A stretch of DNA of 48,393 bases from Acidobacteriaceae bacterium (GTDB lineage Bacteria > Acidobacteriota > Terriglobia > Terriglobales > Acidobacteriaceae): NCBI GenBank assembly GCA_003140235.1, contig PLJN01000123.1, positions 5,525-53,917 of the forward strand, in the 5' to 3' direction. Positions 5,643 to 28,768 of the stretch are shown here, in pieces. Position 1 is the first letter of the stretch; the number at the start of each line of letters is the position of its first letter. A program made the translations under genes and the position numbers. The notes below the pieces were generated by a model. That model was not told where the DNA came from, ran no database searches, and saw nothing but the letters and a program-made list of their open reading frames with translations.

Positions 5643-6271
5643 GTTTGGCTGCAGTAAAACAAATACGCCGGCGGGATATTGCGCGGCTCAAATCCCCGAT
5701 TGACCTGAGTGAAACAGGACCGCAGGTATGGCAGGGCAGTCCGCGTAAATTGGTAGAACAGTACAGTGCCTCCCGGGTTCAAGGCCGCGCAGGCTTCCTG
5801 CGTGATCCTGGCCCGCAAAGATTTCGACATGGGGGTATAGGGGACGCCGGAAATAATGTAATCCGCGCCGTCCATTTTTAGCTTGCTTAGTTCTTCTTGT
5901 ACGTCCTCCGCCGACCCGTGGACCACATACAGTCGGGAATCCACAAAAGCGCTTTTCAGATAGCGGACAAAGTCTTCATTCTTCTCGACCACCACCAGCC
6001 TGGCGTCAGGCGGCATTCGGTCGAGGATGTGGGACGTGAATGTTCCCACGCCCGGCCCGTATTCCACGATGGTGCGAGCGCGGTCCCAATCCACCTGGCC
6101 CAGCAAACGGTTGATGAGGAAGCGGGAACTGGGAATGACGGAACCCAGCATGTTGGGATGTTGGAGGAAATTCTTAACAAACAGCAGCTTTTGCCCGTTG
6201 CGCGATGCGCGAGTCTCTAACATTCGTCCCTTAGGGTCCAAGATGGCTTTTATTAACAGTGAGATAACCAT
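5639..6271 (-). CDS. SAM-dependent methyltransferase, phospholipid N-methyltransferase (PmtA)-like
   Basis: About 210 residues with an early FVKNFLQHPNMLGSVIPSS segment followed by the SAM-binding motif VEYGPGVGTFT, an acidic VVVEKNEDF strand end, and GVPYTPMS. The opening segment and motif order are those of the PmtA-like group, related to the KsgA fold, which methylates phosphatidylethanolamine. The start at 6271 (MVISLLIKAIL) has AGAAGG about 10 bases upstream; 6295 and 6223 are alternatives. Substrate is inferred only from similarity. The stop codons of this gene and of the convergent oxidoreductase overlap at 5639-5642, leaving no room for a terminator between them. Confidence 0.8.
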   Translation of the reverse strand: MVISLLIKAILDPKGRMLETRASRNGQKLLFVKNFLQHPNMLGSVIPSSRFLINRLLGQVDWDRARTIVEYGPGVGTFTSHILDRMPPDARLVVVEKNEDFVRYLKSAFVDSRLYVVHGSAEDVQEELSKLKMDGADYIISGVPYTPMSKSLRARITQEACAALNPGGTVLFYQFTRTALPYLRSCFTQVNRGFEPRNIPPAYLFYCSQT

Positions 6272-6347
6272 ACTCGCTTGCCTTCTCAGATGCAAAAAGC
6301 AGACCCAAAACCTGGTTCTTACGTCCGGGAAACCGGCCCAAACCTGA

Positions 6348-6353
6348 TATGAT
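6348..6353 (+). promoter_or_regulatory. Possible -10 box before the first VWFA gene
   Basis: TATGAT ends 11 bases before the ATG at 6365, and no Shine-Dalgarno sequence lies between them. This would give a very short leader or a leaderless transcript. It is a pattern match only. Confidence 0.35.
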
Positions 6354-6364
6354 TTTTAACTGTC

Positions 6365-7912
6365 ATGAAGACTTATCTTGCCAATTTGCGCACACTTTCC
6401 CTGGTTTTTTTCCTTCTCGCTCTGTCATTGAGCATGGTCTCGCCCATGCGTTCACAAACGACGCCAAAACCAGAAAAATCAGACAGCGTGCTGCGGGCAA
6501 CCACGCGCCTGGTGGTGGTGGACGTGGTGGTCGTTAACGAAAAAGGCAACTCGGTCACCGGCCTTAAGGCGGAAGATTTTACCGTTTTGGAAGACGGCAA
6601 GCCGCAGACGATACGCGACTTTAGCTTCCAAACGCCCAAGACAGTCGCGCCGGCGCCCCTCAAGCTGGCGCCGGGCGTTGTGACCAATGCTCCGCAGTTC
6701 GGCGACGCCAGCGCTCTCAACGTGATTCTCCTGGACGCGACCAACACAGATTTTTCCAACCGCGCTTATGCCCAGGACTTGCTGATCAAGTACCTCGAAA
6801 CCAGTCCCACGATCCAGCCGACAGCGGTTTTTGCTCTGGAAGGTAAGTTGACGATGCTCCACGACTTCACGACGGACACCAAAGCGCTGAGGGACGTGGT
6901 GGCGAATTTCAAGCCGGCGGGACCGACCCATATTCAGACCGTAGAGTCGGGATCCACTCCGTTTGGCCATAGCGGTTCATTTCAGACGTCAGCGCATGGC
7001 CGCAACATTACTTTCAATGCAATCAGCTTTCTCGCGAAAGCACTGGCGGGATTGCCGGGACGGAAGAACCTAATCTGGCTTTCCGATGGATTTCCCATCA
7101 GTCTTTTTCCCAACGCCCCAGTGGCAGGCGCGGAAACGAGTTTTGAGGACTTCTCGGCTGTCGCGGAGAAGATTGCGGATGATCTCATGAACGCGCAAGT
7201 TGCGCTTTATCCCATCGATGCGGCTGGTGTGTCATTGAATGATACTTTCCCCAACCGCGTGGCCATGCTCAGCATGTCGGAACGGACCGGCGGCAAGACT
7301 TTCTACAACCGCAACGACCTGGATATGGGCATTCGTACCAGCATTGACGACGGCGCCACCTACTACACGCTGGATTACTATCCGGACAACAAGACATGGG
7401 ACGATAAATTCCGCGAGATTCGAGTCAAGGTCACCCGTCCGGGGGTACGCTTGCGCTATCGGCAGGGCTATTTCGCGCAAGCCCCAACGAAGGAACCCGA
7501 ACCGGTAGCCAGACAATTCACCCAAGCCATGTTTCCTGATGCTCCGCCTTCCACCGGCGTGCTTTTCCAGGCGTTCGCCGCCCCTCCTTCCGAAAAGACA
7601 GGCAACAAGCCGGTCGTGAACTTCGGCATTGATGCCCATACGCTGGCGTTTCAACGAGGCGCGGACGAGCAGGAGCATGTCGCGATCACCTGCGTGGTAT
7701 GGGCTTATCCCGCCAAGGGAGAACCCGTCCGCGTGGAGAACGAAACCACGGCTGGCCTCAGGGAAGACGATTATCAAAGAGCTATGCACAGCTACTTCCC
7801 CTGTAAATGCATACTGGACCTCAAGCCTGGCCGTTACACGTTGCGTTTGGGTGTTCTCGATCGCACGACGAACCTGATCGGGACTACCACCACGCAACTC
7901 ACAGTGCCATGA
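6365..7912 (+). CDS. VWFA-related acidobacterial exported protein, copy 1 (subfamily A)
   Basis: A 515-residue member of the TIGR03436-type family; the biological role of that family is not established. A signal peptide spans about residues 1-31 (hydrophobic LSLVFFLLALSLS core). A beta domain with TRLVVVDVV and DFTVLEDGKPQ follows (about 42-80). The von Willebrand A-like fold has its first strand at about 117-129 (LNVILLDATNTDF), where the canonical DxSxS metal site is changed to DATNT, and the third site as IWLSDGFP near 236. A central YYTLDYYP block and a C-terminal Ig-like beta domain ending TTQLTVP complete it. Two conserved cysteines (about 443 and 479) are joined by a third in FPCKC, unique to this copy. 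First gene of the tandem array. Confidence 0.88.
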   Translation: MKTYLANLRTLSLVFFLLALSLSMVSPMRSQTTPKPEKSDSVLRATTRLVVVDVVVVNEKGNSVTGLKAEDFTVLEDGKPQTIRDFSFQTPKTVAPAPLKLAPGVVTNAPQFGDASALNVILLDATNTDFSNRAYAQDLLIKYLETSPTIQPTAVFALEGKLTMLHDFTTDTKALRDVVANFKPAGPTHIQTVESGSTPFGHSGSFQTSAHGRNITFNAISFLAKALAGLPGRKNLIWLSDGFPISLFPNAPVAGAETSFEDFSAVAEKIADDLMNAQVALYPIDAAGVSLNDTFPNRVAMLSMSERTGGKTFYNRNDLDMGIRTSIDDGATYYTLDYYPDNKTWDDKFREIRVKVTRPGVRLRYRQGYFAQAPTKEPEPVARQFTQAMFPDAPPSTGVLFQAFAAPPSEKTGNKPVVNFGIDAHTLAFQRGADEQEHVAITCVVWAYPAKGEPVRVENETTAGLREDDYQRAMHSYFPCKCILDLKPGRYTLRLGVLDRTTNLIGTTTTQLTVP

Positions 7913-7993
7913 GATGAAACGAGGCTATAAGCCGGGGCGCCGTCCCTCGCGGCATCGGTTTTCTTCCATCTATGGAGGAGCTAATTTTGTTGC

Positions 7994-8014
7994 TGATTTC
8001 CGCGCAAGAAATCA
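7994..8014. repeat. Small hairpin between VWFA copies 1 and 2
   Basis: TGATTTC and GAAATCA form a perfect 7-base inverted repeat around a 7-base loop in the 235-base gap between copies 1 and 2. There is no T-run, so it is not an obvious terminator. It may be an mRNA stem. Nothing else recognisable was seen in this gap. Confidence 0.4.
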
Positions 8015-8147
8015 GAACACCTGGCGTTCCTCGTCGTTAGAGACGACATAAGAGCTTGCCATCGAGCTTTCCAGGATTCTCTAGCTCTCTTTTCGAGCAT
8101 AGGATCGTCTAACCTGCAACAATCCAGTCCTTTTGGGAGAAGTAGAA

Positions 8148-9728
8148 ATGACCTCGGAACCCCGTACGCGCAGTCATCTTCCGGTTTTTTTCATCATTTT
8201 TTCATTTTTGCTTTTGCTCACAGTTGGAGGACACCCACAGTCAGCTTCGGGGGATACTTCGCAAAAGGACAAAGGACAGGTCTATCAAACGCCCGAAGTC
8301 CTGCGGGCAACAACGCGGCTGGTCGTTCTGGATATTGTGGTCAAAGACAGCAGCGGCCATCCGGTAAAGGACCTGAAGGCGAGCGACTTCAAGGTCTTCG
8401 AAGAGGGCAAGGAACAAAAGATCACTGATATGAGTTTCCACGAGCCCTCTTCCAATTTGAGGACCGTGTCCCTGCACCCCAAAGGCGTGCTCACGAACGT
8501 ACCGGAGTACCGGGACAACAGTTGCCTGAACGTGATCCTGCTGGACGCAATCAACACGGACTTTTCCAACCGCGCCTATGCCCAGGACATGTTGATCAAA
8601 TATCTGAACAGCCAGCCGACCATTCAGCCTACGGCGGTATTTGCCCTGGATGGCAAACTGAGATTGCTGCACGATTTCACTACCGACACCAAGGTATTGA
8701 AAGACGTGATTGCCCACTACATGCCCAAGGACATGCTGACCCACATCGACACGGTGTTTGCCGCGGCATCGCGGTATGGCGTGGACGGTTCTTTCCAGAC
8801 CAGTGATTTAGGGCGCGTGAAGACCCTTTCGGCCATGAACTACCTGGCCCACGCGTTGGGCGGCTATCACGGACGGAAGAACCTGATCTGGGTTTCTGAC
8901 GGTTTTCCCATCGACGTAGTTCCTGACCCGAAGACGGGGTCTTTCGGAGAAACCGACTACTCCGCCGCGGTAGAAAAAGTGGCGGACGCATTGTTGACGG
9001 CGCAAATTGCGGTCTATCCCATTGACGCAGCTGGCGTTGGCCGCGGCGGCAACTTCGATTCCCACGTCACCATGTCGAACATGGCCGATCGCACCGGCGG
9101 CAGGACTTTTTTCAATCGCAACGACATTGAAGTCGGCGTCCAAACCAGCATTGACGACGGCTCCACTTATTACACGCTGGAGTATTATCCGCAAAACAAA
9201 AAGTGGGATGACCGCTTTCGCCGGATCAAAGTCGAAGTGTCCAGGCCCGGGGTGAAGCTGCGTTACCGCGAGGGCTATTACGCGGTGAGTCCGGAAGCTT
9301 CCCGCCGGGCGGACCTCGCGGATGTAGCGGATGATTTCAGCCATGCCATGGACCTGAATGCACCTACTTCCACGGCCGTGCTTTTTGAAGCTGCCTTGCC
9401 CGCCTCGCAAAGGACCCAGAACAAGGTGGTGGTTAACTTCGCCATCAATCCCCATACCGTTTCCTTTGAAACGGGGACAGACGGTTTGCAGCACGCGACC
9501 GTCAACTGCGTGGCCTGGGCTTATCCCGAGAAAGGTGATCCGGTCCGGTCAGAAGGTGGAAGCACCGCCGCGCTTAGTCCCGAAGTTTATAAGCAAGTAA
9601 TGAGCAACTATCTACCGTGCCAGCGCACGTTGGAGCTCAAACCAGGGCGCTACACTTTGCGACTCGGCGTGCTGGACCGCACTACCAACCTGATTGGAAC
9701 ACTGAGCACCTCACTTACAGTACCGTAG
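8148..9728 (+). CDS. VWFA-related acidobacterial exported protein, copy 2 (subfamily A)
   Basis: The ATG at 8148 is preceded by GGGAGAA at 8135-8141 and is preferred over an in-frame TTG at 8133. The 526-residue product has a strongly hydrophobic signal (VFFIIFSFLLLLTVGG, about residues 11-26). It resembles copy 1 most closely, sharing NTDFSNRAYAQDMLIKYL and the phrase IQPTAVFALDGKL. The third metal-site region reads LIWVSDGFPID, retaining Asp. The conserved cysteine pair is at about 453 and 491. The gap to copy 1 (235 bases) and the strong hairpin after its stop suggest its transcription may be separable from copies 3-6. Confidence 0.88.
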   Translation: MTSEPRTRSHLPVFFIIFSFLLLLTVGGHPQSASGDTSQKDKGQVYQTPEVLRATTRLVVLDIVVKDSSGHPVKDLKASDFKVFEEGKEQKITDMSFHEPSSNLRTVSLHPKGVLTNVPEYRDNSCLNVILLDAINTDFSNRAYAQDMLIKYLNSQPTIQPTAVFALDGKLRLLHDFTTDTKVLKDVIAHYMPKDMLTHIDTVFAAASRYGVDGSFQTSDLGRVKTLSAMNYLAHALGGYHGRKNLIWVSDGFPIDVVPDPKTGSFGETDYSAAVEKVADALLTAQIAVYPIDAAGVGRGGNFDSHVTMSNMADRTGGRTFFNRNDIEVGVQTSIDDGSTYYTLEYYPQNKKWDDRFRRIKVEVSRPGVKLRYREGYYAVSPEASRRADLADVADDFSHAMDLNAPTSTAVLFEAALPASQRTQNKVVVNFAINPHTVSFETGTDGLQHATVNCVAWAYPEKGDPVRSEGGSTAALSPEVYKQVMSNYLPCQRTLELKPGRYTLRLGVLDRTTNLIGTLSTSLTVP

Positions 9729-9745
9729 CCAGGTAATTCTTTCGC

Positions 9746-9775
9746 GATGGCCGGCCTTAAAGCGGCCGGTCCATC
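9746..9775 (+). terminator. Strong hairpin between VWFA subfamilies A and B
   Basis: GATGG-CCGGCC pairs with GGCCGG-CCATC around a TTAAAGC loop, an 11-pair stem with one bulged T. It begins 18 bases after the stop of copy 2. No T-tract follows, so it is either a factor-assisted terminator or an RNA-stabilising or processing stem. It marks the boundary between the two subfamilies. Confidence 0.5.
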
Positions 9776-9856
9776 GGCGCTTACAAAACACTACAAATCA
9801 TTCCCAGGTGGCATTGGACGGAGGTCTATACTTGGCTTGTCCAATCGGAGGCCTTT

Positions 9857-11497
9857 ATGAGGTCATTCTCCCTTATCCTGGCGGTCGCCACTCTGGTTTT
9901 TCTGTCCACTGGTCCGCGCTCCCAGTCACAGGACGCACAGCAGTCTGCCAACCCATCGAAACCTGTCTTGAAAGCAAATACGCGTCTGGTGGTGGTGGAC
10001 GTGGTCGCGACCGATTCCGCGGGGCATCCGGTCTCCGGTCTGGAAGCGCAGGACTTCACGGTGCTGGAAGACGGCCAGCCGCAGAATGTGAGCGGTTTCA
10101 GTTTTCAACAGCCGGGGACCAGGATCACCGAGGTTGCGCTTCGTCTTCCTCCGGGCGTGGTATCCAATGTTCCCCAGCACAAGGCGACCAGCCTTAATGT
10201 GGTCTTGCTGGATACGATGAATGGAGATTTTGCCGGACACGCCGCGGCCCAGGCAGCCCTGGTCAGGTACCTTGCTTCCGCCCAGCTAGCGCAACCGCTG
10301 GCCATCTTTGTGATGGGAGACAAGCTGACGATGCTGCATGACTTCAGCACAGACGGCCAGTCGCTGAAATCGGCAGCCATGAGGTTCAAGCCGCCCGCCC
10401 CGAGAGGAAGCACGGAGACCGTTCAGACCGTCGCCACGCCCTTTACCAACAAGGGTGATTTTCACACCGATGACCGGAAAATCGAATCCACTCTGGCCCA
10501 GTTGCACGCCTTGGCACGGACGCTGTCGCGATACCCCGGCCGTAAGAACGTTATTTGGCTGTCGGAAGCCTTCCCCCTGGATCTGGTCCCTGAGGCCGCT
10601 GTACGAGATAGCGTGAATTTGGCAAGCGTGGACTGGCAATCTCTCGGCGGCACAAAAGGGCGCAAAGGGCCAGTTAGTGTGCCGATGGCCTTTGACAATC
10701 TGAGGGATGCACGCACCAACCACGATTTTGGAGAGTTGGTCCAGAAACTGGTGGACGCCATGATGGGAGCACAAGTCGCCCTGTATCCCGTGGATTCGGC
10801 CGGGCTGGGCAAGGACGATCATCTCGCGTCATTGCATACCATGAGTGACATGGCCTACGGGACCGGTGGCCGGGCGTTCTATAACCGCAACGATCTCGAG
10901 GTCAGCCTGCGCACCAGTCTGGAGGATGGTTCGACCTATTACACTCTGAGTTACTACCCTGGCAATAAACAGTGGGACGGCAAGTTCCGTGTCATTTCCA
11001 TCAAGGCCAACCGTCCGGGCGTAACCCTTCGCTATCGGCTGGGTTACTACGCGCTCGATCCCGACGTTGCCGCCAAGGACGAACTTAAGAAAACTGTCGA
11101 CGACTTTGGCCATGCCCTGGAGATGGATGCTCCGTCCGTCAGCGCGGTCCAGTTCCGGGCTACCGTGGCGCCGCCCAGTGAGAAAACCCAGGGCATGGTA
11201 GTGGTGAAATTTGCCATCGACCCGAACACGCTGCGCTTCGAAAATCAAGATGGTTTGGAACACGCCGCGGTCACCTGTGCCGTTTGGGCCTATTCCGGAA
11301 AGGGAAACCCCGTGCGATCTGAGGGGACCAGCAATGCCGCGATCAAGCCAGATGTGTTTCAGCAGGTGATGGAATCGATCTACCCTTGTCAACGGACCAT
11401 GAGTCTGAAACCCGGTAAGTACACGTTGCGGCTGGGCGTTCTGGATAACATCTCCAACCAGTTTGGGACCACAATGTCTGAGATTACGGTGCCTTAG
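9857..11497 (+). CDS. VWFA-related acidobacterial exported protein, copy 3 (subfamily B)
   Basis: First of four subfamily-B copies, 546 residues, with GGAGG at 9847-9851 before the ATG. The signal peptide (MRSFSLILAVATLVFLST) is short, and the processed protein would begin near QSQDAQQSANPSKP. Subfamily marks are VVLLDTMNGDFAGHAAAQ at the first metal-site strand and VIWLSEAFPLDLVPE, where the Asp of the SDG motif in copies 1-2 is Glu. It is the longest copy because of an added loop at about residues 256-276 (GGTKGRKGPVSVP region). The cysteine pair is at about 474 and 511. Its last 200 bases are nearly identical to those of copy 4. Confidence 0.88.
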   Translation: MRSFSLILAVATLVFLSTGPRSQSQDAQQSANPSKPVLKANTRLVVVDVVATDSAGHPVSGLEAQDFTVLEDGQPQNVSGFSFQQPGTRITEVALRLPPGVVSNVPQHKATSLNVVLLDTMNGDFAGHAAAQAALVRYLASAQLAQPLAIFVMGDKLTMLHDFSTDGQSLKSAAMRFKPPAPRGSTETVQTVATPFTNKGDFHTDDRKIESTLAQLHALARTLSRYPGRKNVIWLSEAFPLDLVPEAAVRDSVNLASVDWQSLGGTKGRKGPVSVPMAFDNLRDARTNHDFGELVQKLVDAMMGAQVALYPVDSAGLGKDDHLASLHTMSDMAYGTGGRAFYNRNDLEVSLRTSLEDGSTYYTLSYYPGNKQWDGKFRVISIKANRPGVTLRYRLGYYALDPDVAAKDELKKTVDDFGHALEMDAPSVSAVQFRATVAPPSEKTQGMVVVKFAIDPNTLRFENQDGLEHAAVTCAVWAYSGKGNPVRSEGTSNAAIKPDVFQQVMESIYPCQRTMSLKPGKYTLRLGVLDNISNQFGTTMSEITVP

Positions 11498-11544
11498 TCG
11501 TTTTGATCGGTTCGTGCTCGACCTGATTCACTCTGGAGGGTCTT

Positions 11545-13158
11545 ATGAAATCACTTTGCCTGAGCGTGGCGGTTGCCACTTTGGTTCTACTGCCTGTCGG
11601 TTCGCACTCCCAGCAGTCTGCTGACCCGTCGAAGCCTGTGCTGAAAGCAAAGACGCGTCTGGTGGTTGTGGACGTGGTCGCGACCGATTCCGAGGGTCGT
11701 CCGGTCTCCGGTCTGGAAGCGCAAGACTTCACCGTACTGGAAGATGGCCGGCCGCAGAATGTCACTGGCTATAGTTACCAACAGCCCGGGACCATGATCA
11801 CCGAGGTCACGTTTCGTCTGCCGCCCAACGTTGTGTCCAATATTCCGCAGCACAAGGCTGGCACTCTCAATGTGGTTCTGCTGGATACGCTCAACGGAGA
11901 CTTCGCCGGACACGCCGCGGCCCAGGATGCTTTGATCAAATATCTGGACAGTGCTCAGTTGACGCAGCCGCTGGCCATTTACACCCTGGGAGATAAGCTG
12001 GTCCTGCTACATGATTTCAGCACGGACAATCAGGCGCTCAAGACCGTCGTACAGAAGTTCAAGCCTGCCCCGCAAAGGAACTCCACAGAGAACGTGATGT
12101 CCATGGCCTCAGCTTTCCCCAACCGGGGCGACTATCACACCGATGACCGGAAAAGAGAGACCACGGTGAATTCGCTGCATACTTTGACCCGGACGCTTGC
12201 GGCATACCCGGGGCGGAAGAATGTCATCTGGCTGTCGGAAAGCTTTCCCATGGACCTAGTCCCTGAGGCCGCCGTGCAAGACAGCAACAACATTGCCATC
12301 TTTTCGCCCGCCATCATCCCAGGGAGCCCTGGTGCGAAGACCCCGATGACCTTTGACGCTCTGCGGGATTCAAATGACAGTCATGATTATTCAGGGATGG
12401 TAGCGAGTCTGGCGGACGATATGATGGGCGCTCAAGTCGCCCTCTATCCTGTGGACTCCGCCGGGCTGGGAAAAGACGACCACTTGGCGTCGCTGCACAC
12501 CATGAACGCACTGGCCCAAAGCACAGGTGGGCGGGCGTTCTATAACCGCAATGACTTCGAGGTCAGCCTGCGTACCAGCCTGGAGGATGGCTCAACTTAT
12601 TACACGCTGAGTTATTATCCTGACAACAAAGCGTGGAACGGCAAGTTCCGTACCATTTCCATCAAGGCCACCCGTCCAGGTACCACCCTTCGCTATCGCC
12701 TGGGCTACTACGCGCTCGACCCTGAAGCTGCTGCCAAGGACCAAACCAAGAACACTGCCGAGGGCTTCAGCCACGCCCTTATGCCGGATGCCCCGTCAGT
12801 GACCGCCGTCCAGTTCCGAGCCGGCGTGGTGCCGGCCAGTGACAAGACCCAAGGCAACGTGATGGTGCACTTCTCCATTGATCCGCATACTCTGGGCTTC
12901 GAAAATCAAGACGGATTACAACATGCTGCGGTCACCTGTGTCGTTTGGGCCTATTCCGGAAAGGGAAACCCCGTAAGATCTGAGGGGACCAGCAATGCGG
13001 CGATAAAGCCGGACGTGTTTGAGCAGGTGATGCAATCAGTTTACCCTTGTCAGCGGACGATCAGCCTTAAGCCCGGTAAATACCGGCTGAAGCTGGGCGT
13101 TCTGGACAACACCACCAACCAGTTTGGGACCACAACGTCTGAGATTACGGTGCCTTGA
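11545..13158 (+). CDS. VWFA-related acidobacterial exported protein, copy 4 (subfamily B)
   Basis: A 537-residue product starting 47 bases after copy 3, with GGAGGG at 11535-11540 before the ATG, so the two are likely one transcript. The signal peptide is MKSLCLSVAVATLVLLPVG. The first metal-site strand reads VVLLDTLNGDFAGHAAAQ and the third-site region IWLSESFPMDLVPE. The loop before the YPVDSAG strand differs from copy 3 in sequence (IIPGSPGAKTPMTF), while the flanks agree, so variation between copies is concentrated there. C-terminal domain: VTCVVWAYSGKG and YPCQRTISLKPGK provide the conserved cysteines. Confidence 0.88.
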   Translation: MKSLCLSVAVATLVLLPVGSHSQQSADPSKPVLKAKTRLVVVDVVATDSEGRPVSGLEAQDFTVLEDGRPQNVTGYSYQQPGTMITEVTFRLPPNVVSNIPQHKAGTLNVVLLDTLNGDFAGHAAAQDALIKYLDSAQLTQPLAIYTLGDKLVLLHDFSTDNQALKTVVQKFKPAPQRNSTENVMSMASAFPNRGDYHTDDRKRETTVNSLHTLTRTLAAYPGRKNVIWLSESFPMDLVPEAAVQDSNNIAIFSPAIIPGSPGAKTPMTFDALRDSNDSHDYSGMVASLADDMMGAQVALYPVDSAGLGKDDHLASLHTMNALAQSTGGRAFYNRNDFEVSLRTSLEDGSTYYTLSYYPDNKAWNGKFRTISIKATRPGTTLRYRLGYYALDPEAAAKDQTKNTAEGFSHALMPDAPSVTAVQFRAGVVPASDKTQGNVMVHFSIDPHTLGFENQDGLQHAAVTCVVWAYSGKGNPVRSEGTSNAAIKPDVFEQVMQSVYPCQRTISLKPGKYRLKLGVLDNTTNQFGTTTSEITVP

Positions 13159-13223
13159 TTGACCGGCCGTTGCTTGCTCAATCAGAACGAACAGGTCTAT
13201 GCTGGTTTGACCATGGAGGCCTC

Positions 13224-14813
13224 ATGAAGTCGTTTCTTTCAAGCCTGACCGTGGCTGCTCTGTTATGTCTTTCCCTGCCAGGCACACCGGACGCACAGCA
13301 GCCCGCCGGCCCATCGAAACCCACGTTGAAAACAAATACCCGTCTGGTCGTAGTGGATGTGGTCGCTACCGATTCCGAAGGGCGGCCGATTTCCGGCCTC
13401 AACGCTCCCGACTTCACCGTGTTCGAAGATGGCCATCCGCAGAAAATCAGCGGCTTTAACTATCAGCAGGGTGGAACCAAGGTTACACAGGTTGTGCTTC
13501 ATCTTCCGCCCAATGTGGTGTCCAATATTCCCACGCAAAAAGCCACGAACCTCAACGTGGTAGTGCTCGACACCTTGAACGGAGACTTTGCCGGACATGT
13601 AGCGGCGCAGGATGCCCTGATCAAATATCTTGACACCACGCAATTGACGCAGCCCATGGCGATCTTTTCCATGCAGGACCGGCTGACGATGCTGCACGAT
13701 TTCACCACCGACAGCCAGGCGCTGAAGTCGGTTGTTGAGAAGTTCAAGCCGCCCGTGCGTCACAACGGCTCGGAGAGCATGGCGTCCCGCATCTCAGCCT
13801 TCACCACCAAAGGTGATTACCACACCGATGAACAGAAGATCGAAGCCACGCTGAACCAGTTGCATTTGCTGGCGCGAACGCTCGGGGGATATCCCGGGCG
13901 CAAGAATGTCATTTGGCTTTCGGAAAGTTTCCCTCTGGTGCTGGCCCCGGAAACAGCAGTACGTGACAGCGCTGGCCTCGCTAGCATGGAGGGGAGTGCC
14001 TTCGACAACCTGCGGCAGGGAAATATCACCAACGATTATTCCGGGCTGGTACAGAAATTGGCGAACGCCATGATGAGCGCTCAGGTCGCCATGTATCCTG
14101 TGGATTCCACCGGACTGGGAAAAGACGACCATCTGGCGTCCCAACATACCATGAGCGACCTGGCTTTCAGTACTGGAGGCCGCGCCTTTTTCAACCGCAA
14201 CGATCTCGAAGTCAGCCTGCGCACCAGTCTGGACGACGGTTCCTCTTATTACACGCTCACATATTATCCTGACAACAAAGACTGGAACGGCAAGTTCCGC
14301 ATTATTTCCATCAAGGCCGCGCGTCCCGGCGCGAAGCTTCGCTATCGCCTGGGTTACTACGCGCTTGATCCCGGAGCCGTGGCCAAAGACGAAACGAAAA
14401 GAATTTCCGAGGATTTCAGTTACGCCCTTACGCTGGATACCCCGTCCCTCACCGCAGTCCAGTTTCAGGCCCGTGCGGTGATGCCCAGTGATAAGACCCA
14501 GGGCAAGGTACTGGTGAACTTTGCCATTGACGCGCATACCCTGGCCTTTGAGCGAAGTCAGGACGGCGTGCAGCATGCCTCCGTAAGTTGTGCGGTCTGG
14601 GCCTTTTCCGGTAAGGGAGATCCGGTGCGTTCGGAAGGGAATGCCATTGAAGCTAACCTCCCGCCGGAGGTGTACCAGCAGATGATGGCCTCGTACTTTC
14701 CTTGTGCGCGAAGTCTGAGTCTTAAGCCTGGTCACTACACCCTTCGTCTGGGCGTTCTTGATCGCACTACCAACCAGATGGGCACCACAACCGCGGAAGT
14801 CACGGTGCCTTAA
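13224..14813 (+). CDS. VWFA-related acidobacterial exported protein, copy 5 (subfamily B)
   Basis: The frame is open from 13155, but the start at 13224 fits: it has GGAGG at 13215-13219, and MKSFLSSLTVAALLCLSLPG aligns with the signal peptides of its neighbours. The 529-residue protein has VVVLDTLNGDFAGHVAAQ and IWLSESFPLVLAPE. It lacks the extra loop of copy 3. The C-terminal domain is slightly divergent (YFPCARSLSLKPGHY) and ends DRTTNQMGTTTAEVTVP, combining the DRTTN phrase of subfamily A with subfamily B surroundings, which hints at recombination between copies. Confidence 0.88.
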   Translation: MKSFLSSLTVAALLCLSLPGTPDAQQPAGPSKPTLKTNTRLVVVDVVATDSEGRPISGLNAPDFTVFEDGHPQKISGFNYQQGGTKVTQVVLHLPPNVVSNIPTQKATNLNVVVLDTLNGDFAGHVAAQDALIKYLDTTQLTQPMAIFSMQDRLTMLHDFTTDSQALKSVVEKFKPPVRHNGSESMASRISAFTTKGDYHTDEQKIEATLNQLHLLARTLGGYPGRKNVIWLSESFPLVLAPETAVRDSAGLASMEGSAFDNLRQGNITNDYSGLVQKLANAMMSAQVAMYPVDSTGLGKDDHLASQHTMSDLAFSTGGRAFFNRNDLEVSLRTSLDDGSSYYTLTYYPDNKDWNGKFRIISIKAARPGAKLRYRLGYYALDPGAVAKDETKRISEDFSYALTLDTPSLTAVQFQARAVMPSDKTQGKVLVNFAIDAHTLAFERSQDGVQHASVSCAVWAFSGKGDPVRSEGNAIEANLPPEVYQQMMASYFPCARSLSLKPGHYTLRLGVLDRTTNQMGTTTAEVTVP

Positions 14814-14846
14814 GAAATCGGAGTTCGTTTTCCGCAAAAGGTTTTT

Positions 14847-16454
14847 GTGAAATCATTTCCTGCCCGCGGAGCTTTCGCCAGTCTCTGCTTTCTGGCGCTT
14901 TTCGCCGCGTCCCATGCCCAGTCGAGTGCACAAGACGGACAACAGGCTGCCGGTCCGCCGAAACCCGTGTTGAAAGCGAATACGCGCCTGGTGGTCGTGG
15001 ATGTGGTTGCTGCCGATTCCACGGGCAGGCCTGTCTCCGGTCTTGAAATCCATGACTTCACTGTGCTCGAGGATGGCCGCCCGCAGAAAATCAGCGGTTT
15101 TAGCTTTCAGCAGCCTGGACCCAGGATCACCGAGGTCGCGCTTCGTCTCCCACCCAACGTAGTGTCCAATGTTCCCCATTACAACGCCACCAGCCTGAAC
15201 GTGGTGCTGCTGGACACGCTCAACGGAGATTTTGCCGGACACGCGGCGGCCCAGGATGCGCTCGTGAAATACCTTGCCACCGCCCAATTGACGCAGCCGC
15301 TGGCCATCTATGTGATGGGCGATAAGCTGACGCTGCTGCACGACTTCACCACCGACAACCAGGCGCTGCGAGCCGTGGTGCGCAAATTCAAAGGGCCGGC
15401 GCCAGCGACTGACGAAAGTATGAAGTCACGCATTTCAGCCTTCACCAACCGGGGTGATTTTCACACGGATGACCGGAAAATCGAAGCCACGGTGAATCAG
15501 TTGCACGCTCTGACTCTGATGCTTGCCGCGCACCCAGGACGCAAGAACGTGATTTGGCTGTCGGAAAGCTTTCCTCTGGTGCTGGTCCCTGAGACCGCCA
15601 TCAAGGACAGCAAGAGTGTGAGCGAATTGAACGGGGCGGACAGCTTCTCCATGCTGCGGGACTCAAACACCAGCCACGACAATGCGGGAATGGTAAAGCG
15701 GGTAGCCGACGCCATGATGACCGCGCAGGTCGCCATCTATCCCGTCGATTCCACCGGGCTGGTAAAAGACGACCATCTGGCGTCCATGCACACTATGGGT
15801 GAACTGGCCTCCAGTACCGGCGGCAGGGCCTTCTACAACCGCAATGATCTCGAAGTCAGCCTGCGCACCAGCCTGGAAGATGGCGCAACCTATTACACGT
15901 TGAGTTATTACCCTGACAATAAACAGTGGGACGGCAAATTTCGGAGCATCGCCATTAAAACCAGCCATTCCGGCGCCGCCCTCCGCTACCGCCTGGGCTA
16001 CTATGCGCTCGATCCGGAAGCCTTGGCCAAGAACCAACCAACAAAGACGGCCGATGACTTCAGCCGGGCCCTTATGCTGAATTCTCCGACCGTGACCGCT
16101 GTCCAGTTCCAGGCTGGCGTGGAGCCGCCCAGTGATAAAACCAAGGGCAAGGTTGTGGTGAGCTTCTCCATTGATCCGCACACCCTGGCCTTTGAGAAAA
16201 ACAGCGACGGCGTGGGACATGCCTCGGTCAGCTGTGTGGTGTGGGCTTTTTCCGGCAAAGGAGATCCCATTCGATCGGAAGGGACAAGCAAAGCCGAGTT
16301 CTCCGAGGATAGGCTTCCGCAAATGATGCAATCACCCTACCCATGTCATCGGAGTATCAGCCTCACGCCGGGCAGGTACACTCTGCGGTTGGGGGTGCTG
16401 GACACGACTACCAATAAGTTTGGCACCACAACAACTGAAGTCACGGTGCCGTAG
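14847..16454 (+). CDS. VWFA-related acidobacterial exported protein, copy 6 (subfamily B)
   Basis: Starts with GTG at 14847, 33 bases after copy 5; AAAAGG at 14836-14841 is the likely ribosome site and the resulting MKSFPARGAFASLCFLALFA aligns with the other signal peptides. The 535-residue protein has VVLLDTLNGDFAGHAAAQ, IWLSESFPLVLVPE and VYPVDSTGL-type strands. Its C-terminal domain reads SCVVWAFSGKG and YPCHRSISLTPGRY. It is the last copy, and its stop lies only 5 bases from the stop of the convergent Kdo hydroxylase gene, so no separate terminator fits between them. Confidence 0.88.
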   Translation: MKSFPARGAFASLCFLALFAASHAQSSAQDGQQAAGPPKPVLKANTRLVVVDVVAADSTGRPVSGLEIHDFTVLEDGRPQKISGFSFQQPGPRITEVALRLPPNVVSNVPHYNATSLNVVLLDTLNGDFAGHAAAQDALVKYLATAQLTQPLAIYVMGDKLTLLHDFTTDNQALRAVVRKFKGPAPATDESMKSRISAFTNRGDFHTDDRKIEATVNQLHALTLMLAAHPGRKNVIWLSESFPLVLVPETAIKDSKSVSELNGADSFSMLRDSNTSHDNAGMVKRVADAMMTAQVAIYPVDSTGLVKDDHLASMHTMGELASSTGGRAFYNRNDLEVSLRTSLEDGATYYTLSYYPDNKQWDGKFRSIAIKTSHSGAALRYRLGYYALDPEALAKNQPTKTADDFSRALMLNSPTVTAVQFQAGVEPPSDKTKGKVVVSFSIDPHTLAFEKNSDGVGHASVSCVVWAFSGKGDPIRSEGTSKAEFSEDRLPQMMQSPYPCHRSISLTPGRYTLRLGVLDTTTNKFGTTTTEVTVP

Positions 16455-16459
16455 TTTCC

Positions 16460-17374
16460 TTAGCTCACCATGGCCGTGCCGGTGACCTGTTCCAGCACGC
16501 GCACCGGCGCAACTTGCGGTGTGACCAGGGCTTCCGGCGGCACAATGAACGTCTGCTCGAGCGCGAACTTGCCGGACATCACAGCGTGGGGAACGCCATC
16601 GGTATAAACCAGCCATGTCCATCCCGGCAGCAGCGCCAGTTCCTGCTTGGACGAATTCTGCTGGAAGTTACCATTTTCCTTGAGCCAATCGTGGAAGTAC
16701 AGCATGAACTCGTCATAGCGCGAGCGGTCGGCGAACGGCAGTCCCATACCGCTGGCCAGATGCACCAGGCTGCGGGCCAGAGCGCCGCGGTACGGCGGAC
16801 TTAGTTTTTCTGACTGCGCCAATTTCGGAACAAAGACGTGAAATGGCTCACCGACGTTCCAAATGCGCGAGGCCTCTGCGTTGATGTTGACGAACACGCG
16901 AAGAATACGGCCACCGCGGGTCGGCCGCGTAGGGAATGCGTCCACGTGGAGCAAATCATTGCGCTTGTGCAGCGGCAGATCGCGGCTGTGTTCTTCCAGC
17001 GGGCGAAAACTGGCAAAGTCCATCTTGCATTTGCCGGCATACGGCGCGAGAAATGAATCCACAAACCCGGCGGTCTCTTTCGAAAAATGTCGCATGATCC
17101 CCAGGAGGCGTTCACGGTCCGGCGAGTCCGCGGCAACGCCTTTCAGCAGGTCGCGCGAAGGCCTGAACGAAATGTTCTTATGAAATCGAGACTCGGCCTG
17201 CTTCTGCGATAGCAGAAACTCGCGGTCGCTCTGCGGCAAATCAAAGGGGACCGTGGGAAAAAAAAGCACATGCCCGCGTTCCAGTTGATCACAATACCAG
17301 CGGGCCTGTTCCGCAAGCCACGACTTCGGCTGGTAGCCGTTGACTTGCAGTAAAGCCGGGTCTGAATTCTTCAT
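16460..17374 (-). CDS. kdoO: Kdo 3-hydroxylase, Fe(II)/2-oxoglutarate dependent
   Basis: About 304 residues matching the Kdo-hydroxylase family, which converts 3-deoxy-D-manno-octulosonate of the lipopolysaccharide inner core to Ko (3-hydroxylated Kdo). Visible signs are NDLLHVDAFPTRPTRGGRIL, giving the HxD iron ligands, the following RVFVNINAEASRIWNVGEPF block typical of the family, and DGVPHAVMSGKFALEQTF with the distal His. The start is uncertain: ATG at 17374 has AATAAT six bases upstream and would be leaderless, while ATG at 17395 adds seven residues; neither has a Shine-Dalgarno sequence. No other lipopolysaccharide gene lies beside it. Confidence 0.8.
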   Translation of the reverse strand: MKNSDPALLQVNGYQPKSWLAEQARWYCDQLERGHVLFFPTVPFDLPQSDREFLLSQKQAESRFHKNISFRPSRDLLKGVAADSPDRERLLGIMRHFSKETAGFVDSFLAPYAGKCKMDFASFRPLEEHSRDLPLHKRNDLLHVDAFPTRPTRGGRILRVFVNINAEASRIWNVGEPFHVFVPKLAQSEKLSPPYRGALARSLVHLASGMGLPFADRSRYDEFMLYFHDWLKENGNFQQNSSKQELALLPGWTWLVYTDGVPHAVMSGKFALEQTFIVPPEALVTPQVAPVRVLEQVTGTAMVS

Positions 17375-22222: not shown

Positions 22223-23261
22223 CTACTCTCGCGGTACTTCGATACTGGTCGTGGCCGTCCCGATCAGCCTGGTTTTTACATCGCGCACACCGATCTTGAG
22301 CGTGTACTTGCCCGGGGCGAGAGTTAGTTTCTGTGTCAGTTCCAGACGGCTGGCCATGATCGCGGCATAGGTGTCCGGTTTGAGGGCGGTGGTCACGGTA
22401 TCGGCCGCGTTCGCCACGAGCTTGCCTTTCTTGTCAAAAGCATAGGTTCATAAACGGATTATTGGAGTCGGCATCCGGCGCCAGGTAGAAAGGAAACGCT
22501 CCGGAGAGCCAGATCAGGTTCTTGCGTCCGGGAAAACCGGCCACATTGCGCCCAATACTTTTTAGCGCTTCCACGGTAAGAGTGACGCGCATATCCGTCA
22601 TCAACGCCTGCTGTTCCGACTGAAAGTCGGCGATCGATTGCGCCGCCATGCTGGACGAATCCCCAAACGGATCGTACGAATGCAACGCCAGCTTTTTGAT
22701 CGCCTCCTGCAACACGGCGGGATCGGTGGTGAAGTCCTGCACCAGCCGCAGCTTGCTGCCCAGCGTGTAAATCGCCACGTTGTGCCGCGTTCCCATATTC
22801 TTGAGATAGTTGACCAGTTGTTGGCGCATGTAAGGCTGGTCTTTGGTCAGTGTATTCAGAGCGTCAATCAGCACCACGGTCGGCGGTCCGTCCGCGAGAT
22901 TGACGTCCGGGATATTGGTGAAGACGTTCGGCGGCAGAACGCGCGGGGCAAACTGACTGCGTCCCGCGGGCATGCCTTCGCGGGCGCCAAAAGCGCGAAT
23001 CATCTGCTGCCGGCCGTTCTCCAGGACCACGAAATCCGATGGTTGCAGTCCGGTGACCGGATCGCCGTTGTTATTGGTCACCACGGCGTCCACCAGCACC
23101 ATACGCGTGGACACTTTCAATGACGGTATTGGCGCTGTTCCGCTGTTTTGCGTGGTTGCCGGACTGGGGGCGGGCTGTCCGGCTTGCTGGGCGCTAAGGC
23201 AAAGTGCGGCTGAAAACAAAATGAAGAAGAATGGCCTGATTCGGCTTTGCAACTTCAGCAT
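22223..23261 (-). pseudogene. Decayed seventh VWFA-related gene (internal deletion plus frameshift)
   Basis: The 5' part (23261 down to about 22434) encodes a signal peptide, LKVSTRMVLVDAVVTNNNGDPVTGL, VVLIDALNTLTKDQ and GFPGRKNLIWLSGAFPFYLAPD, the first half of the family found at 6365-16454. It then hits a stop after NPFMNLCF. In another frame, from about 22433 to 22223, the sequence continues YAFDKKGKLVANAADTVTTA and ends LTLAPGKYTLKIGVRDVKTRLIGTATTSIEVPRE, the family C-terminus. The roughly 200 residues between, including the YPIDAAG and YYTLDYYP blocks, are missing. A deletion that also shifted the frame explains this. The start has GGGAGAA upstream, so a truncated protein might still be made. 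Confidence 0.8.
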
Positions 23262-26701: not shown

Positions 26702-28768
26702 ATGCATATATCATCACTATCGGTTAGGAATTTCCGCTCTCTTGACGAGCTCTCAATTGACTTTAAGCCTGGAGCCAATTTGATTGTTGGTCCGAACGCG
26801 GTCGGAAAGACGACTGTGCTTGAAGCAATTCGACTAGTTAAAGCTACGCTTGCTCCTCGGACTCAACAGGAGACTCGCAATACATTCATAAGCTTAGGTG
26901 CAATTTCACCTCAGCTACCTCAAATGTTCAATTTCGGTGCAATCGCCAGAGATAGTAAACGGCCCGTGCAAATTAGTTGTGATTTCACGCTAAGTGACTC
27001 CGAAATCGCACTCTTACCGGAAAAATTCACTGATCTTTGTCGAGCTGTTGTTGCTGCGCAGAGTGGCATTTCGCTGCTGGATAGTGGGCCACTCGGGTTA
27101 GTTCAATTCCTGTCTTCCCCGGCCGGACAACTGGCGATGCAGCAAGCTGGTACATACGTGAACGAGAACATCGGAAGAATTAGCCAGAGCCGTCAATGCA
27201 AACTCGCTCTAAAAATCGATCCAGCTACCTCAGGCATTTCCGGGGACGACTCCTTTTCGCAACTTCTCTTTTCTGTGTTGGAAGGAACCCTCGACCCGTT
27301 CACGACTAAGTTCAGCTATTTCCCCGCCGATAGGGCTTTACCTCCAGGAGAGATGCCAATTCAATTGGGAGCAGTAGATGCTGCCCAACAGCTGGAATCG
27401 CATAACTCCGCGCCCGCGTCAAAATATCAAAGGTTAAAGAATACGATCTTTGCGTCACTGGTCGATAGCCCAGAAAGCAAAGAGATTCTACTTGCAACGT
27501 TTAGTAAGATTTTTACTAAACTGCTTACCGGTCGTGCCATAGAAACATTCGGCGTGAATCAATACGGGCAAGCTTCCATAATCATTAAAGACACCATTAC
27601 GGGAGAGACGTTTGACATTGATTCAATGAGCAGCGGAGAGAAGGGTCTCATCTTAACTTTCCTGATCATTGCGAGATCGATTGAAGCAGGAGGTATGATC
27701 CTTATTGACGAGCCCGAGCTGCATCTGAATCCGGCAGTGTGTAAATCCCTCCTTGGCTTTCTCCTGGATGAGTATCTCTTGCCGAAAAACATCCAGGCCA
27801 TCATATGCTCGCACTCGGCCGAAATATTCAGCACTGCAATGCGACGCGCTGATTGCTCTGCATATCATTTAAGGCAAGGCAGTATCGTCTCTGAGATTCG
27901 GAAAAAAGACCAACCGGAAGTAGCGCAAGCCTTGCGGCTCTTGGGAACGTCCGAAGTGGAAGAGATGCTTTATGAAGGTGTCATTTTCGTCGAGGGCGAA
28001 GATGATGTTGACTTATTGGAAGCCGGTTTTCCCGAAATGCTTGCGAAAATCAAGTTCAGAGAATTGTCAGGACGCGGGCAAGTAGAAAAACATATCCGAA
28101 AATTACAGGAGGCCGAAACAAAAGGCCAAAAGGAAAATATTTCATATTTTCTGTTTGATCAGGATAGAAAGCCGAGCACACTTAAGAGCTCTCTGAAAGT
28201 CAAGATTAAGCAGTGGGATCGTTACTGCTTGGAAAATTACTTGATCGACTCCGCTGTTCTTTTTGACGTACTTCGACAGGAAAAACTCGGGTCTTTTCCG
28301 TCGAATTTAGGTGAGGCAAGCAAGTTGTTCGCGGACACTGCCAGAACACAATTAGTCTCGCGAGTCATTGAAGAAGTGTATGACGCGTACGAGTACGAAA
28401 ACCCCGGCCTCCGCCCCAAAGAAGTGTCAGACAAGAACTTTGGCGAGGCCGCTCAAGTACTTTTTGCAAGGTTGGAGGCGGTGCAAGCTCAAGTATTAAA
28501 GATCAAGAAATCTGACTGGGATGCTGAGTTCGTCAAGAAATGCGAATCGCTGTTGCAGGCTCGAGAACAGGAATGGCAGGACGGGTGGCTGATCAAGTGC
28601 AATGGAAAACAATTTTTTCGAGATCTCTACGTCAAATGTGGTATTGGTGTGGCGCCACTGATCCTGAAACGAAGGATTTTGATGCAGTGCAAACTCACCG
28701 GGTCTGAGGGCTGGAAGTTGCTCCAAGCCGCACTAAAGGAATTGCTTGAAATGAATACGCCTGCATAG
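26702..28768 (+). CDS. AAA ATPase fused to a Toprim/DUF4435-like nuclease domain (OLD- or PARIS-like, candidate anti-phage protein)
   Basis: One 688-residue chain with two parts. The N-terminal ABC-type ATPase has Walker A GPNAVGKTT (about 30-38), signature SMSSGEKGL (about 309-317), Walker B MILIDEPELHLNP (about 331-343) and the switch His in IICSHSAEIF (about 369). The C-terminal part has Toprim-like acidic motifs: FVEGEDDVDLL near 429 and LFDQDRK near 484, then WDRYCLENYLID near 504. OLD-family nucleases have this architecture, and the two-gene PARIS system (ATPase AriA, DUF4435 nuclease AriB) is known in merged form; the VEGEDD and ENYL features resemble DUF4435. Base composition is visibly more AT-rich than the flanking genes, suggesting transfer. 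No partner gene is evident, so it may act alone. Confidence 0.75.
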   Translation: MHISSLSVRNFRSLDELSIDFKPGANLIVGPNAVGKTTVLEAIRLVKATLAPRTQQETRNTFISLGAISPQLPQMFNFGAIARDSKRPVQISCDFTLSDSEIALLPEKFTDLCRAVVAAQSGISLLDSGPLGLVQFLSSPAGQLAMQQAGTYVNENIGRISQSRQCKLALKIDPATSGISGDDSFSQLLFSVLEGTLDPFTTKFSYFPADRALPPGEMPIQLGAVDAAQQLESHNSAPASKYQRLKNTIFASLVDSPESKEILLATFSKIFTKLLTGRAIETFGVNQYGQASIIIKDTITGETFDIDSMSSGEKGLILTFLIIARSIEAGGMILIDEPELHLNPAVCKSLLGFLLDEYLLPKNIQAIICSHSAEIFSTAMRRADCSAYHLRQGSIVSEIRKKDQPEVAQALRLLGTSEVEEMLYEGVIFVEGEDDVDLLEAGFPEMLAKIKFRELSGRGQVEKHIRKLQEAETKGQKENISYFLFDQDRKPSTLKSSLKVKIKQWDRYCLENYLIDSAVLFDVLRQEKLGSFPSNLGEASKLFADTARTQLVSRVIEEVYDAYEYENPGLRPKEVSDKNFGEAAQVLFARLEAVQAQVLKIKKSDWDAEFVKKCESLLQAREQEWQDGWLIKCNGKQFFRDLYVKCGIGVAPLILKRRILMQCKLTGSEGWKLLQAALKELLEMNTPA

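Follow-up and report, generated by a model that had tools for sequence, protein, structure and literature searches.

The NCBIfam family TIGR03436 (acidobact_VWFA) is an already known, large paralogous family of the Acidobacteriota, and its NCBIfam description states no function. Our study concerns six consecutive genes of this family, A1, A2 and B1 to B4, in a 48,393-nucleotide stretch of an Acidobacteriaceae genome (GenBank assembly GCA_003140235.1, contig PLJN01000123.1), to which we refer as the window. All six match the whole family profile (from position 1 or 2 to 323 or 324) at 231.8 to 256 bits, above the curated cut-off of 81.25. The family name spans at least two kinds of protein, and the array belongs to a long kind that lacks the DxSxS motif of the metal ion-dependent adhesion site (MIDAS) and carries a C-terminal beta domain. 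We propose that the array encodes exported binding proteins with a von Willebrand factor A (VWA) fold, largely without a metal site, in tandem birth-and-death, a reading to which we give a probability of about one half.

Several described systems resemble the array in part. Canonical VWA and integrin I domains (ANTXR, vWF A3, integrin alpha I) share the fold of the middle domain of the array proteins, which differ from them in having no DxSxS motif; none of the six genes reaches the gathering score of Pfam VWA, and the sole VWA match is to VWA_2, at 13.6 bits against 27. In the pilus-tip proteins PitA, PilB and Mfa5 a VWA domain is combined with beta domains; these proteins are among the structural matches of the array models, from which they differ in that the whole-length template modelling score (TM-score) is about 0.25 by query length and the array has no DxSxS, and no pilus gene was found among the window neighbours scanned. 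The BatB-like VWA proteins of Bacteroides likewise share the VWA fold (3ibs and 4jdu are structural matches). BatB belongs to a Bat gene context with a MoxR-type ATPase, and neither such an ATPase nor another Bat gene was found among the neighbours scanned. Bd0875 of Bdellovibrio, compared here by its description, represents a bacterial adhesin family that is defined by a MIDAS domain (PMC11003981), which the long class of the array lacks. The closest precedent in an acidobacterium is a group of divergent 'von Willebrand factor, type A' paralogues in Solibacter usitatus Ellin6076, which, like the array, has no positive selection (difference between nonsynonymous and synonymous rates, dN-dS, -0.583; PMC3174227); the text of that report, as far as it was available, has no TIGR03436 label, tandem A/B array or MIDAS analysis. 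Open-access searches judged by title and abstract, a coverage that excludes most subscription journals, gave no paper on TIGR03436.

Fold and metal site of the array proteins

AlphaFold2 models of A1 (mean predicted local distance difference test score, pLDDT, 86.6; predicted TM-score, pTM, 0.83) and B4 (82.9 and 0.81) both start with strands, followed by a domain in which alpha and beta elements alternate and by a mainly beta region at the C terminus. The C-terminal domain, Ig-like in the original prediction, is all-beta in the two models. Foldseek returned 74 PDB matches at E <= 0.001 for one model and 81 for the other, and the 50 listed for each are largely VWA proteins. ANTXR1/2, integrin I domains or headpieces, the inter-alpha-inhibitor heavy chain, Sec23/24 and BatB were matched by both, as were PitA and Mfa5; PilB was matched by A1 only and vWF A3 by B4. 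Whole-length TM-scores are low, and the likeness is claimed for the VWA domain only. The two models thus support the vWA-like fold of the original prediction and assign a predicted VWA fold to the middle domain. A sequence search of solved structures with a 54-row profile gave no match at E <= 0.1. In integrin beta the VWA domain is inserted in a beta domain. Because the TIGR03436 profile covers the N-terminal strands, the VWA domain and the strands that follow it, an insertion of the same type is plausible here by analogy.

The N termini are hydrophobic and by eye resemble Sec signal peptides, so that the array proteins are probably exported via Sec. Two C-terminal cysteines of the long class, Cys463 and Cys500 in B4 numbering and corresponding to Cys443 and Cys480 of A1, occur together in 36 of 54 aligned proteins and are both missing from the other 18, with no protein carrying a single one. 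This all-or-none pattern suggests that the two form a disulfide and that the proteins reach an oxidising compartment, which fits export.

The DxSxS motif is found in none of these 54 proteins, all of which match TIGR03436 at E <= 0.001; they are the best matches to the array itself among 99 collected rows, and the count therefore holds for the array's family branch. Asp at motif position 1 and Asn at position 4 are present in every one. We compared them with 33 other family members, made up of 20 proteins from 20 genomes (open frames of 306-460 aa from the high-scoring listed part) and 13 of the 15 remaining above-cut-off members of the window's own genome; two loci, L022 and L024, were left out, as the profile search gave no open reading frame (ORF) for their own match. 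DxSxS together with the loop-3 Asp is present in 29 of the 33 (20/20 and 9/13, respectively), and the four own-genome proteins without the full site include one of 767 aa on contig C192 (D-L-S-S-M, loop-3 Ser). From this difference we conclude that TIGR03436, judged by its sequences, pools MIDAS proteins with proteins that have lost the MIDAS and carry a C-terminal beta domain; no report of such a split was found in the open-access searches. A third, longer kind of TIGR03436 protein is represented by locus L002 (C192:97360-98463 of the window's genome, G000), with a partly degraded metal site (D-L-S-S-M, loop-3 Ser), and by open frames of 700-790 aa listed for relatives.

Within the array the metal site appears degraded to different extents, fully in B1-B4, partly in A2 and least in A1 (motifs in Table 1), and the lack of DxSxS throughout the long class makes metal-dependent adhesion by B1-B4 unlikely. 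The 'adhesion-type' domains that had been predicted are thus not borne out in the usual, metal-dependent sense. An alternative, which we consider very improbable, is that these proteins do adhere through a metal, bound at a non-canonical site that the invariant D..N, a loop-2 Thr and, in some, a loop-3 Asp or Glu would form. Besides the invariant pair, Thr is found at position 215 in 51 of 54 proteins; motif position 5 is occupied by Thr or Ser in 43, and loop 3 carries Glu or Asp in 35. A1, the sole row with Thr at motif position 3, retains every part of the site in a form with Thr in place of Ser (D-x-T-x-T, with the loop-2 Thr and the loop-3 Asp) and may still bind metal through it. Set against this, 48 of the 54 have Leu, Ile or Val at position 3, the loop-3 Asp itself is kept in five, and the window's B proteins combine Gly at position 5 with Glu in loop 3.

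Table 1. Genes of the array and the predicted RNA hairpin between A2 and B1 (window coordinates).
Feature	Position	Strand	Product or class	TIGR03436 score (bits)	Motif at DxSxS position	Loop 3	Remarks
A1	6365..7912	+	515 aa, long class	256	D-A-T-N-T	Asp	AlphaFold2 model
A2	8148..9728	+	526 aa from ATG, long class	249.6	D-A-I-N-T	Asp	alternative in-frame TTG at 8133
Hairpin	9743..9779	+	RNA hairpin, no U tract				z -3.04; 2 of 200 shuffles equally stable
B1	9857..11497	+	546 aa, long class without MIDAS	237.1	D-T-M-N-G	Glu	
B2	11545..13158	+	537 aa, long class without MIDAS	231.8	D-T-L-N-G	Glu	
B3	13224..14813	+	529 aa from ATG, long class without MIDAS	243.7	D-T-L-N-G	Glu	alternative longer TTG ORF from 13155
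B4	14847..16454	+	535 aa, GTG start, long class without MIDAS	234.9	D-T-L-N-G	Glu	AlphaFold2 model

Tandem copies in the genus and the family

The six genes are intact and lie head to tail in the order A-A-B-B-B-B. Protein identity is 56% between A1 and A2, 66-73% among the B proteins and 44-48% between A and B. In a tree of 26 rows the A group (seven rows from six genomes) has a support of 100/100 and the window's four B genes one of 100/99, and a quick tree of 99 rows gave the same two groups. The 11 B rows of the smaller tree are not drawn as one clade; neither a joint B clade (approximately unbiased test, p-AU 0.341) nor a sister relationship of A1 and A2 (p-AU 0.087) is rejected. The intergenic gaps measure 235 nt (A1-A2), 128 nt (A2-B1), 47 nt (B1-B2), 65 nt (B2-B3) and 33 nt (B3-B4). 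Both the tandem order of the original prediction and its gaps of 33-65 bases among the last four genes are thereby confirmed. Further along the window, on the minus strand at 22434-23261, lies another family gene of 275 aa, whose D-A-L-N-T motif is that of the long class. It matches positions 1-191 of the profile only, by eye a typical C-terminal end follows in another frame, and it looks like an internally deleted gene or an assembly join.

The window's genome (4.9 Mb, 89% complete, 204 contigs) holds 30 TIGR03436 matches at E <= 0.001, of which 24 exceed the cut-off. Among relatives, all 31 genomes searched, this one included, have members above the cut-off, and each contains 8-30 matches. 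In a sample of the phylum at least 92 of 119 genomes exceed the cut-off and at least 117 have some match, none being found in the other two; among 14 control genomes none exceeds it and 3-4 have a weak match. At most 23 candidates were scored per genome in a search of 61 genomes and about 16 in the 119-genome sample, so that these counts are lower bounds. Members of the family also tend to stand side by side. Eight neighbour pairs, with less than 2 kb between matches, occur among the 24 above-cut-off matches, against a mean of 0.34 under random placement; when the array is counted as one, three pairs remain against 0.21, a number equalled in 0.07% of 20,000 draws (coordinates were taken from the genome match list and contig ends ignored). 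Elsewhere, a family ORF is present at 74 related loci; eight of them carry two or more, and among these are five co-directional pairs with gaps of at most 120 nt. Tandem pairs therefore recur in the family. The five pairs, from other acidobacterial loci, lie outside the array's own subfamily (L103 36-3391, L111 2470-6283, L116 7907-11719, L049 9815-13660 and L051 200-2763). For that subfamily, the matches listed for the 61 genomes include no run longer than the six genes described here.

In those 61 genomes a profile of the six genes found full-length members of the array subfamily (18 proteins, 100/100) in genus-mates only, among the matches listed. The genus is known here from metagenome assemblies, and six of its nine genomes carry such members: G000, G002, G004, G005, G006 and G008. 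The other three, G001, G003 and G007, have partial, weaker matches only, and those that were placed in the tree fall in other branches. The eight relatives thus hold zero to three copies among the matches listed, against seven full-length ones in the window's genome, six of them in the array.

In the five relatives with the subfamily, copies are grouped with recA and with genes for an alpha/beta hydrolase and an ABC-F ATPase. The arrangement at this locus is A-B in G004 and G002, A-B-B in G008, B-B in G005 and A alone in G006. The A-to-B gaps are 86 nt (G004), 30 nt (G002) and 86 nt (G008) and the B-B gaps 28 nt (G008) and 16 nt (G005), lengths that depend on the ATG starts chosen in our analysis. 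The block of hydrolase and array genes is inverted relative to recA and ABC-F in G004 as compared with G008 and G002 (loci L149-L153). In the window the array instead lies between a methyltransferase gene and a Kdo hydroxylase gene, whose homologues were not found adjacent in the seven relatives with both, although contig breaks leave some doubt; in six they lie on separate contigs, and in G008 about 540 kb separates them. Neither recA nor the ABC-F gene was found in G000 at the thresholds used, and this incomplete assembly may lack the recA locus. No family gene stands beside recA or ABC-F in the stretches read from G001, G003 and G007, a view partly cut by contig ends.

A followed by B is the commonest unit in the genus. 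The tandem arrangement, whose absence from related genomes would have counted against the original prediction, is present there, and the A-to-B order recurs, yet the gene set is accessory: A and B are both at the locus in three of the five relatives with the subfamily, and neither is present in three of the eight. These observations bear on whether A and B form the subunits of a hetero-oligomeric surface or periplasmic assembly. Such a complex would be in keeping with the A-to-B adjacency, which survives both the inversion of the block and its different place in G000, and with gaps of 30-86 nt in relatives. It is hard to reconcile with A without B in G006 (81% complete), with the A copy of G005, about 464 kb from its B-B pair on the same contig, and with the lack of both in G001, G003 and G007 (100, 97 and 93% complete), and we regard it as improbable. 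The multi-subunit assembly that had been suggested is not upheld as a fixed set, given how unreliably A and B co-occur in the genus. With zero to three copies in related species, the array has the look of a local expansion and not of a single fixed molecular machine.

Selection on the copies and transcription of the array

B copies from the same genome cluster together in the 26-row tree for G000 (100/99), G005 (100/100) and, weakly, G008 (89/71). On this tree B appears to have multiplied separately in three lineages, that of G008 being weakly supported. The ratio of nonsynonymous to synonymous rates (dN/dS) among the window's B genes is 0.19-0.24 at a dS of about 0.8-1.2, and 0.17-0.25 for A-A and A-B pairs with unsaturated dS. 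By region, B1-B4 give 0.31 for the top-face (ligand-side) loops of the VWA domain (bootstrap 5-95% range 0.16-0.45, 100 draws), 0.14 for the rest of the VWA domain (0.10-0.19) and 0.24 for the C-terminal region (0.17-0.32). Positive selection was rejected, with dN/dS below 1 in every region. Identity among the window's B proteins is lowest in the top-face loops (58%), against 75% for the rest of the VWA domain and 83% for its other loops. Gene conversion among the B copies was also considered and left no near-identical tract; the most similar 40-codon windows reach 0.91 and 0.88 for B1-B2 and 0.51-0.83 for other pairs.

A competing explanation is that neutral or dosage-driven birth-and-death has produced largely redundant copies by unequal crossing-over, with no new specificities. 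Such a process would account for the zero to three subfamily copies in relatives beside seven here, for B copies that cluster by genome in three lineages, for loop variability that is alike in orthologues and paralogues and for the cut family gene at 22434-23261. The combination of a high dS with a dN/dS of about 0.2 among the B genes argues instead for old copies kept under constraint, and the 40-codon windows bear no sign of recent homogenisation; redundancy alone therefore seems to us possible, though on the unlikely side. The 'diversifying family' of the original prediction holds in that copy number shifts by lineage; it does not hold at the level of selection, which is purifying everywhere, or of the loops, which vary equally among A orthologues.

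The last four genes had also been predicted to form one operon, and B1-B4 are likely a single transcription unit. The signals for this are the short gaps between them, a GGAGG a few bases upstream of the B1, B2 and B3 starts, B-B gaps with no more structure than shuffled sequence (z 0.24 to 0.99) and the strong hairpin in the A2-B1 gap, itself a possible transcript boundary. A sigma-70 promoter scan of 6200-16900 gave three sites, no more than the 4.2 expected by chance; the same interval has 19 terminator-like sites against 12.1 expected, most of them within genes, and Rfam has no match in the window. Outside the array, the plus-strand gene at 26702-28768 encodes a protein of 688 aa that contains AAA_15 and DUF4435 domains and whose residues 1-664 match the PADLOC AriAB model at 1.6e-131, which makes it a candidate fused PARIS anti-phage defence gene.

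A model for the array and its meaning for the family

Our data suggest a model in which the array encodes three-part proteins, with an N-terminal beta domain, a VWA-fold domain with a degraded metal site and, at the C terminus, a second beta domain that a disulfide would hold together. Either within the cell envelope or beyond it, these proteins would most likely serve as binding modules that contact a ligand through the open-face loops of the VWA domain, without the usual metal in B1-B4. Single lineages would multiply B, and here also A, by tandem duplication, the outcome of which would be related binding proteins or a higher dose.

A number of observations weigh against this model. By eye the proteins have no lipobox, C-terminal anchor or transmembrane end, which leaves surface attachment unexplained, and the near-complete metal site of A1 sits poorly with a metal-free reading of that protein. 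The bootstrap ranges of dN/dS for the top face and the C-terminal region overlap. Seven A proteins are as variable in the top-face loops as the B copies (55% identity, with 74% for the rest of the VWA domain and 82% for the other loops), and as these are orthologues, such variability need not mean specialised copies; the variable top face is a property of the family and not proof that tandem copies have diverged for new ligands. Parts of the two long top-face loops have a pLDDT below 50 in the B4 model and may simply be disordered. Finally, no recurrent partner gene was found across 77 related loci (74 with a family ORF), where the commonest non-family cluster, a long protein whose start by eye resembles a TonB-dependent receptor, occurs in 12 and the next, an ABC ATPase, in nine.

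A bolder version of the proposal, which we hold as doubtful, is that the long members of TIGR03436 form a VWA class apart, their metal motif having given way to an invariant D-x-x-N, and that the array is an expandable recognition repertoire. For the annotation of these genes, the label 'VWA domain-containing protein' should not be taken to denote a metal-dependent adhesin in the long class. Acidobacteriota are common in soils, and a family so heavily expanded in this phylum, for which the NCBIfam entry gives no role, deserves attention; the six natural variants of the array, together with relatives carrying zero to three copies, provide a test set. If the repertoire reading is true, these bacteria would possess a constant, disulfide-held scaffold with variable loops on its binding face, multiplied lineage by lineage.

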